Source: Dokdonella immobilis | GTDB taxonomy: Bacteria; Pseudomonadota; Gammaproteobacteria; Xanthomonadales; Rhodanobacteraceae | Assembly (NCBI RefSeq): GCF_900115085.1 | Contig: NZ_FOVF01000002.1 | Span: 1 to 64,000, forward strand | Direction: 5' to 3' | DNA: 64,000 nucleotides | Shown: piece by piece, positions 21,178 through 57,825 of the stretch | Position numbering within the stretch: the stretch's first letter is position 1 | Layout of the letters: each line of letters starts with the position of its first letter | The notes under the pieces: generated by a model | What the model saw: the letters and a program-made list of their open reading frames with translations, nothing else | The model's database searches: none | What the model was told of the DNA's origin: nothing | Position numbers and translations under genes: made by a program

Positions 21178-21343
21178 CTGGTGTGGTGTCCCACAAATAC
21201 CATCAAATAATTCCGGCGTCTTTCACGGCGATGCTGCGTTGCTCGTCGTCGTCATAGTGCCCACTATGAATCCTCCTCGCGCCTTGTCTCGCCATGAAAT
21301 CCATCCGGAATTTCTTCGCGTTTTCTGCGGGACGCCACACTAG
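21178..21343. repeat. 166-bp full-length imperfect palindrome, copy 1 (MITE/ERIC-like)
   Basis: The element runs from CTGGTGTGGTGTCCCACA to the near-complement ending CCACACTAG and folds into one long imperfect hairpin centred at 21260/21261 (CATAGTG-CC-CACTATG). A second copy of exactly the same length is at 41041-41206, with about 13 mismatches by hand alignment. Short open frames inside (for example one starting MKSIRNFF at 21294) are by-products of the repeat. Confidence 0.9.
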
Positions 21344-40810: not shown

Positions 40811-41040
40811 TCGGGCTCGTGCGCCATCGGTTCGTGCATGCGCCAAGGGAGGGTCTGATCAGGTAGCAAAGTCGTCACGTTGCCTGGGCGATTGATGGGT
40901 CAATCAAAAAGGTGGCGCCCTGAAGGCTCTCCACAGGCGCCGCGTGCCTCGTCAAGGCGACCCGCCTTCGCTTCGCCACGCAGCGCCTGTGGAAAACCTT
41001 CCGGACGCCATGACGACCTCGCAACCTGGTCAGACCCACC
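40811..41040. other. Intergenic region with a 10-bp inverted repeat
   Basis: Upstream of the decarboxylase. CCACAGGCGC (40931-40940) and GCGCCTGTGG (40983-40992) are perfect inverted arms 42 nt apart, possibly another repetitive palindrome. No gene is supported here. Confidence 0.5.
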
Positions 41041-41206
41041 CTGGTGTGGTGTCTCACAAATACCATCAAATGATTCCGGCGTCTTTCACGGCGATACTGC
41101 GTTGCTCGTCGTCGCCATAGCGCCCACTATGCCTCCTCCTCGCGCCTTGTCTCGCCATGAAATTCATCCGGAATTTCTTCGCGTTATTTGCGAGACACCC
41201 CACTAG
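41041..41206. repeat. 166-bp full-length imperfect palindrome, copy 2 (MITE/ERIC-like)
   Basis: Same length and ends as the element at 21178-21343: starts CTGGTGTGGTGTCTCACA, ends CCCCACTAG, centre at 41123/41124. About 13 mismatches separate the copies by hand alignment. Small frames inside (for example one starting MKFIRNFF at 41157) are repeat by-products. Confidence 0.9.
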
Positions 41207-44401: not shown

Positions 44402-44464
44402 GCGCCCGGCGATGGTATCGGCGCCGCCATCGCCGCCGCTGGCGAGCGGCCGGTGCGTGCCGGC

Positions 44465-57821
<13,357 letters not shown>

Positions 57822-57825
<4 letters not shown>

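Follow-up and report, generated by a model that had tools for sequence, protein, structure and literature searches.

The window, a 64,000-nucleotide stretch of the Dokdonella immobilis contig NZ_FOVF01000002.1, contains two near-identical copies of a small repeat element (Table 1). A sequence-only reading had described them as a pair of 166-bp non-coding copies, and they were found as such, with 13 of the 166 positions differing and no coding content of its own seen in either copy. In both, the left flank is CTGG and the right flank CTAG, and the element proper comprises the 160 bp (G...C) between the TA dinucleotides. The end-to-end hairpin that had been proposed was significant, as both copies folded better than 200 of 200 dinucleotide shuffles (z-scores of -4.09 for copy 1 as DNA and -7.38 for copy 2 as RNA). 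However, "full-length palindrome" overstated the fold, with 45/83 and 44/83 facing positions pairing in the ungapped comparison. Pairing occurs at the two ends, in a middle helix, in an inner stem and at a central CATAG/CTATG; next to the centre, about 18-20 nt per side lie opposite each other without pairing, and these form the most conserved part of the element.

Table 1 Coordinates of the repeat element and its parts in the window
Feature	Position	Strand	Remarks
Copy 1 with flanking CTGG/CTAG	21178..21343	- (= GA-rich, folding strand)	element proper 21181-21340, 160 bp
Copy 2 with flanking CTGG/CTAG	41041..41206	-	element proper 41044-41203, 160 bp
Left IS630-type terminal inverted repeat, copy 1 (GTGTGGTGTCCCACAAATA)	21181..21199	+	
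Right terminal inverted repeat, copy 1	21322..21340	-	2 mismatches to the pattern
Left terminal inverted repeat, copy 2	41044..41062	+	
Right terminal inverted repeat, copy 2	41185..41203	-	1 mismatch to the pattern
Inner module, copy 1 (covarying stem and conserved unpaired loop)	21218..21303	-	model R1, 85.6 bits
Inner module, copy 2	41081..41166	-	model R1, 99.8 bits
Separate higher-copy Dokdonella repeat, ends GGAGGGTCTGATC...	40848..41040	.	adjoins copy 2, outside the element; CTAG-type site in common

The source genome (G000; 4.64 Mb, 78 contigs) contained further copies, namely seven full copies and several fragments, and 9 of the 60 genomes searched, the source genome counted among them, matched the element. 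Identities of full copies were 95-96% in a genome of the same genus (G006), 80-87% in another genus (G025) and 71-77% at the order level. Mobility was indicated by copies at non-orthologous places and by empty sites in G006. The element is thus short, lacks a functional transposase and occurs in several copies at non-orthologous places, and insertion sequences with identical terminal repeats exist as described below, all of which agrees with the MITE named in the earlier reading. The "ERIC-type" label offered there as well did not hold. ERIC sequences are common in E. coli, and 20,395 E. coli records gave no match at E 0.01; the plasmid, E. coli and phage collections also held no match to the window element. 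An ERIC or REP-type intergenic repeat of non-IS origin would account for a long, imperfect palindrome between genes, but the E. coli genomes were without a match and the terminal repeats are those of IS630 elements and are accompanied by a TA duplication, leaving this explanation a negligible chance.

An end-sequence scan of 197 genomes of the family gave 16 matches. In one of them (G026:C57), MITE-type ends lie ~1.19 kb apart around a 374-aa transposase of the IS630 family (NF033545, 283.4 bits against a cut-off of 100; Pfam DDE_3). An IS with the terminal repeats of the element thus exists, here and in other genera. The MITE end sequence CTAGTGTGGTGTCYCRNAARTA occurred at no fewer than 118 loci, that is, at least this number in a scan of species genomes. 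Among the matches listed, end pairs 1148-1214 bp apart enclosed relatives of the G026:C57 transposase, including a full-length relative in Comamonas testosteroni (84% identical), more distant ones in Candidatus Brocadia pituitae (46%) and a Terriglobia MAG (52%), and one in Keguizhuia (49%) in which the transposase is in two pieces. Acidovorax temperans contained a full-length relative at at least 7 loci, with 86-87% identity over aa 3-371. Furthermore, one MITE in G046 adjoins the apparent left end of such an IS630 element, with the CTAG in common, and the source genome retains a transposase remnant (80% identity over aa 240-338) with the decayed end CTATTGCGGTGTCTC. A search for the G026:C57 transposase gave matches in 4 of 16 chosen genomes. 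An intact IS630 partner was not found in the source genome or in G006, both draft assemblies, and an NF033545 search of G046, G055, G038, G049 and G025 gave weak fragments, none over the cut-off.

Two further candidates were considered and rejected. An autonomous copy between terminal inverted repeat pairs 2.7-3 kb apart in G025 was discarded, as the ORFs there resemble host genes by eye. An IS481 origin, considered for the TGT ends and the CTAG, scored 74 bits against a cut-off of 224, compared with 283 bits for the IS630 model.

On the strength of its ends and of the transposases found between such ends, the classification of the element as a non-autonomous MITE of the IS630 (Tc1/mariner) group, which would owe its mobility to IS630, is well supported. 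Mobilization would take place in trans: an IS630 transposase encoded elsewhere, now a remnant in the source genome, would bind the 19-22 bp terminal repeats, and the 160-bp element would be cut out and pasted into the TA of a CTAG site, whereby the TA would be doubled.

The flanks were counted for 72 of 75 elements (L075, L121, L190 and elements cut at the locus end excluded). TA flanked 47 elements on both sides and 25 on a single side, and no element lacked it altogether. The 47 targets with both TAs kept comprised 42 CTAG, 2 TTAG, 2 CTAA and 1 ATAG. A 4-nt target had been suspected from the CTAG-like termini; the preference for CTAG (42/47) was borne out, but the duplication is the 2-nt TA and not 4 nt. 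The TTAG and CTAA targets repeat TA only, which identifies TA as the duplication and assigns the outer G and C to the element. In 21 of the 25 elements with one changed TA, a transition had turned TA into CA or TG, and both window copies are of this kind. Over all flanks, this change at one end was seen in 21/72 elements, as if CTAG were under removal. The + strand of the window contains 8 CTAG, 2 of them element ends, against ~196 expected from base composition. Across 464 kb of the source genome there were 78 non-element CTAG sites, ~18-fold under an expectation scaled up from the base composition of the window. TA target duplication has been described for IS630 of Shigella sonnei and for ISY100 in the accessible text of PMC2170065, which cites Tenzen and Ohtsubo 1991 for TA within 5'-CTAG-3'. 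The present element shares with these two the TA duplication, the CTAG preference, the inverted ends and, through its partner, an NF033545 DDE transposase. In contrast to the IS630 family, it is a 160-bp MITE without a transposase gene, and its conserved folded inside, including the core, was not seen by eye in the IS630 element L081.

Because the element starts with G, insertion into a C-TAG stop rebuilds TAG and leaves the host protein unchanged. According to a simple gene caller, the 78 non-element CTAG sites in the 464 kb were divided into 9 gene stops, 20 intragenic and 49 intergenic sites. When only the full copies of G000 and G006 were tallied (n = 14), called gene stops carried 5/14 copies, compared with 9/78 of the other CTAG sites (Fisher p 0.035). 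With ortholog support the number rose to 7/14 (Fisher p 0.002), by addition of L003 and L005, whose ORFs were missed by the caller and whose G006 orthologs end at the identical codon. The counterpart of L002 in G006 is an empty site in which a single CTAG provides the stop codon; that of L003 is also empty and has TAA as its stop. At the L005 counterpart, TGA terminates the gene at the identical codon and the flank downstream was unalignable, and for L004 the G006 alignment fails across the junction. A wider tally, in which 29/54 long open sides were in frame 0 against 36/111 in the control, includes related copies and was not relied on. As CTAG is strongly depleted, surviving copies gather at stop codons and beside the other CTAG-flanked repeat. 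The stop-codon insertions indicate how a CTAG-targeting element with G as its first base can enter genes harmlessly.

The terminal repeats enclose an ~85-nt module in which a covarying stem holds a near-invariant unpaired loop (GRCAAGGCGCGAGGAG / CGACGAGCAACGC). In alignment A2, which comprises 29 copies from different genomes aligned by sequence alone, RNAalifold predicted 41 pairs, and 27 of these showed at least one compensatory change. A second set of 26 module matches from 25 loci, mostly with other ends, had its 11-bp stem paired in 96% of cells and double changes at 10 of the 11 stem pairs, in an alignment that was fitted to the model and leans toward it. In MITEs, conservation is usually expected chiefly at the ends, which are all that the transposase reads. 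In the present element, the inside matches the ends in conservation, pairs in a strand-specific manner and is common to repeats with different ends; the sequence of the stem drifts while its pairing is kept around the near-invariant loop. An ordinary IS630 MITE, with an inside kept by recent shared ancestry and horizontal spread and a fold left over from an old palindrome, would agree with the same kind of terminal repeats in all A2 copies and with the many near-identical copies per genome. This is nonetheless rather unlikely, as the stem sequences diverge widely with pairing kept, of the 17 invariant columns of A2, 12 belong to the core and 5 to the ends, and the core recurs within repeats that have other ends. 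In Rfam 15, the window gave 0 matches at the gathering score, and the module was without a match in 10 module loci at E up to 0.5, where matches lay outside it (a tRNA at L313:2431-2504 and sub-threshold miRNA models at L301:12-189). No paper describing the module was found, a text search for the core strings gave nothing apart from one entry that seems unrelated, and no literature on Dokdonella repeats was found. The element thus joins the IS630 MITEs as a new member with an unusual conserved inside.

The distribution of the module was searched with R1, a covariance model built on the inner 85 nt alone, accepting matches at E up to 1e-4. R1 matched 30 of 249 Pseudomonadota genomes, the source genome included, with up to 17 copies per genome. 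A mirror-image decoy model matched 0 of the 249; this decoy, built from 22 of the 29 rows of alignment A3, had no positive control and differs in predicted pairing. Of 20 genomes outside Pseudomonadota, chosen because their loci carry an IS630-type end, 16 had no match and four did: a Binatia genome (45 copies), a Verrucomicrobiales MAG (6), an Omnitrophota MAG (5) and a deltaproteobacterium (3). The 45 copies of the Candidatus Binatia genome (G469, OX638375.1, 4.2 Mb) were accompanied by at least three IS630-type end variants (CTAGTGTGGTGTC, CTAGTGTCCTGCGTC, TTAGTGTCCTGTC). Repeat boundaries were set by BLAST with a second copy in 12 of 15 genomes, with L302, L309 and L313 left without boundaries. 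Dispersed repeats that bear the module had the ends AGGGCGTGTTGACATT and the related TAGGGYSTGTTNACR (L303, L306, L310), and the TAGGGYSTGTTNACR end was present in 14 of 20 genomes tried. Other ends around the module were TATAGGGCACCTCGAAAAACC (L298), CATAGTAACTGCTCA (L295), GGGAAGCTCTGCACGAATC-like (L297), TAGGGTCCGTRCTCGATACCGG (L311/L337) and CTAGAACCYATCTCATAAATC (L342/L346). Judged by these ends, the module carriers would belong to different transposon families.

Two module-like hairpins were observed side by side in 264-283 bp repeats at L310 (G406), L296 (G281) and L306 (G310). The L310 repeat matched 4 plasmid records, with no annotation beneath the match, and its unannotated relatives lie on plasmids of Pseudomonas aeruginosa, Azotobacter and Halomonas; the L303 repeat had no match in the plasmid collection.

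The module could itself be mobile, as a small stem-loop element, moved by an enzyme as yet unknown, that has entered several kinds of MITE. This would explain core hairpins of 84-95 nt around which a simple scan detected no longer ends (L296, L304, L306, L308, L310, L312-L317), as well as the presence of two hairpin units inside one repeat (L296, L310). However, comparison with a second copy from the same genome usually placed the repeat boundary farther outward, at a terminal repeat of greater length, so that most of the "stand-alone" hairpins belong to larger elements. An enzyme was not found either, and a mobile module is quite unlikely.

Mismatches in the stem were predominantly G·T rather than A·C (38:4 in A2 and 24:3 in the second set), with ratios of 32:9 in the terminal helix and 6:5 in the middle helix; the related sequences are not independent, and binomial values for this excess are not true probabilities. 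A cruciform would treat G·T and A·C alike, so the excess of G·T indicates that one strand, the GA-rich one, folds. The GA-rich strand alone thus seems to fold, as RNA or as single-stranded DNA, G·T being stable in DNA too. Most likely, an RNA element would form when a copy is transcribed from outside, and the module and its loop may have a function. The orientation relative to the gene whose stop is used was the same in 12 and opposite in 17 cases (n = 29 sides, counted by hand), without bias; an RNA read from the host gene would be expected to show a preferred orientation, and the 12:17 ratio counts against it.

Alternatively, the hairpin could act as single-stranded DNA in a replication-linked step, comparable to IS200/IS605 or integron attC sites. 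Folding of one strand, with G·T tolerated and A·C not, would fit such a step, and the module copies in G386:C1, unlike those in other genomes, were unevenly placed (4 leading and 13 lagging of 17). Yet 22 copies were leading and 28 lagging overall (n = 50, 6 genomes; a single match in G277 excluded from 51, and only 14 G025 places read as separate elements), so that there was no overall bias and a lagging-strand step is not supported overall. The ends, moreover, are those of a DDE (IS630) element that duplicates TA, a type acting on double-stranded DNA. A single-stranded DNA step is therefore very unlikely.

We assign a probability of roughly 0.8 to the whole account, that is, an IS630 MITE that targets TA within CTAG, survives at stop codons and carries a strand-folding inner module. 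More tentatively, and at somewhat less than even odds, the module may be a new structured nucleic-acid family, probably RNA, that serves as a shared cassette of small transposons, whose terminal repeats are of at least six kinds, in Pseudomonadota, Binatia, Verrucomicrobiota, Omnitrophota and deltaproteobacteria, and that is selected for a role in how the elements spread or are tolerated. If the conservation of the inside, its strand-specific pairing and its occurrence between different ends hold, a passenger structure is common to many small transposons, and mutation of a single short loop could test what lets some tiny elements spread.

The Correia elements of Neisseria are bacterial MITEs that are small and non-coding, with terminal inverted repeats and presumed mobilization in trans. 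The same small non-coding form, terminal inverted repeats and presumed trans mobilization are found in the available descriptions of MITEPsy1 of Pseudomonas syringae, which has a CTAG or YTAA target and a 4-nt duplication and resembles ISPsy2 (PMC3189936), and of QMITE1 and QMITE2, the latter residing mostly in 3' untranslated and intergenic regions of Coxiella (PMC5896051). In these descriptions, by which rather than by sequence the elements are set apart, the core is not seen to be carried. The R0/R2 repeats of P. fluorescens, suspected MITEs, likewise have an inverted-repeat stem with a core; that core is described as variable in the consulted part of PMC2718517, whereas the module core, compared by description, is conserved across genera and phyla. 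REPs tagged with GTAG or CGTC are also widespread palindromes, and CGTC REPs have no dedicated transposase, but as far as described in the accessible text of PMC3733652 they measure 20-40 bp and bear the tag at one end. A term search of the available text of a 2024 MITE review (PMC10969869) found no mention of IS630, CTAG or a stop codon.

Another Dokdonella repeat family, whose ends are of the type GGAGGGTCTGATCA, was present at at least 20 places each in G000 and G006, including the one in the window that adjoins copy 2 and further ones at L007, L023, L233 and L265-L268. This repeat is often next to the IS630 MITE, and the MITE copies at L005, L006, L007, L023 and L233 adjoin its sequence. 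Its ends resemble those of MITEPsy1 (GGAAGGTCTGA, CTAG target, as given in part of PMC3189936), and it may therefore perhaps be an IS5-type MITE. Elsewhere in the window, positions 44453-57825 hold two very large adjacent ORFs of 2400 aa and 2057 aa. The 2400-aa protein has AMP-binding/ketosynthase/acyltransferase/aminotransferase domains, the 2057-aa protein has condensation and AMP-binding domains, and the region looks like a PKS-NRPS cluster.
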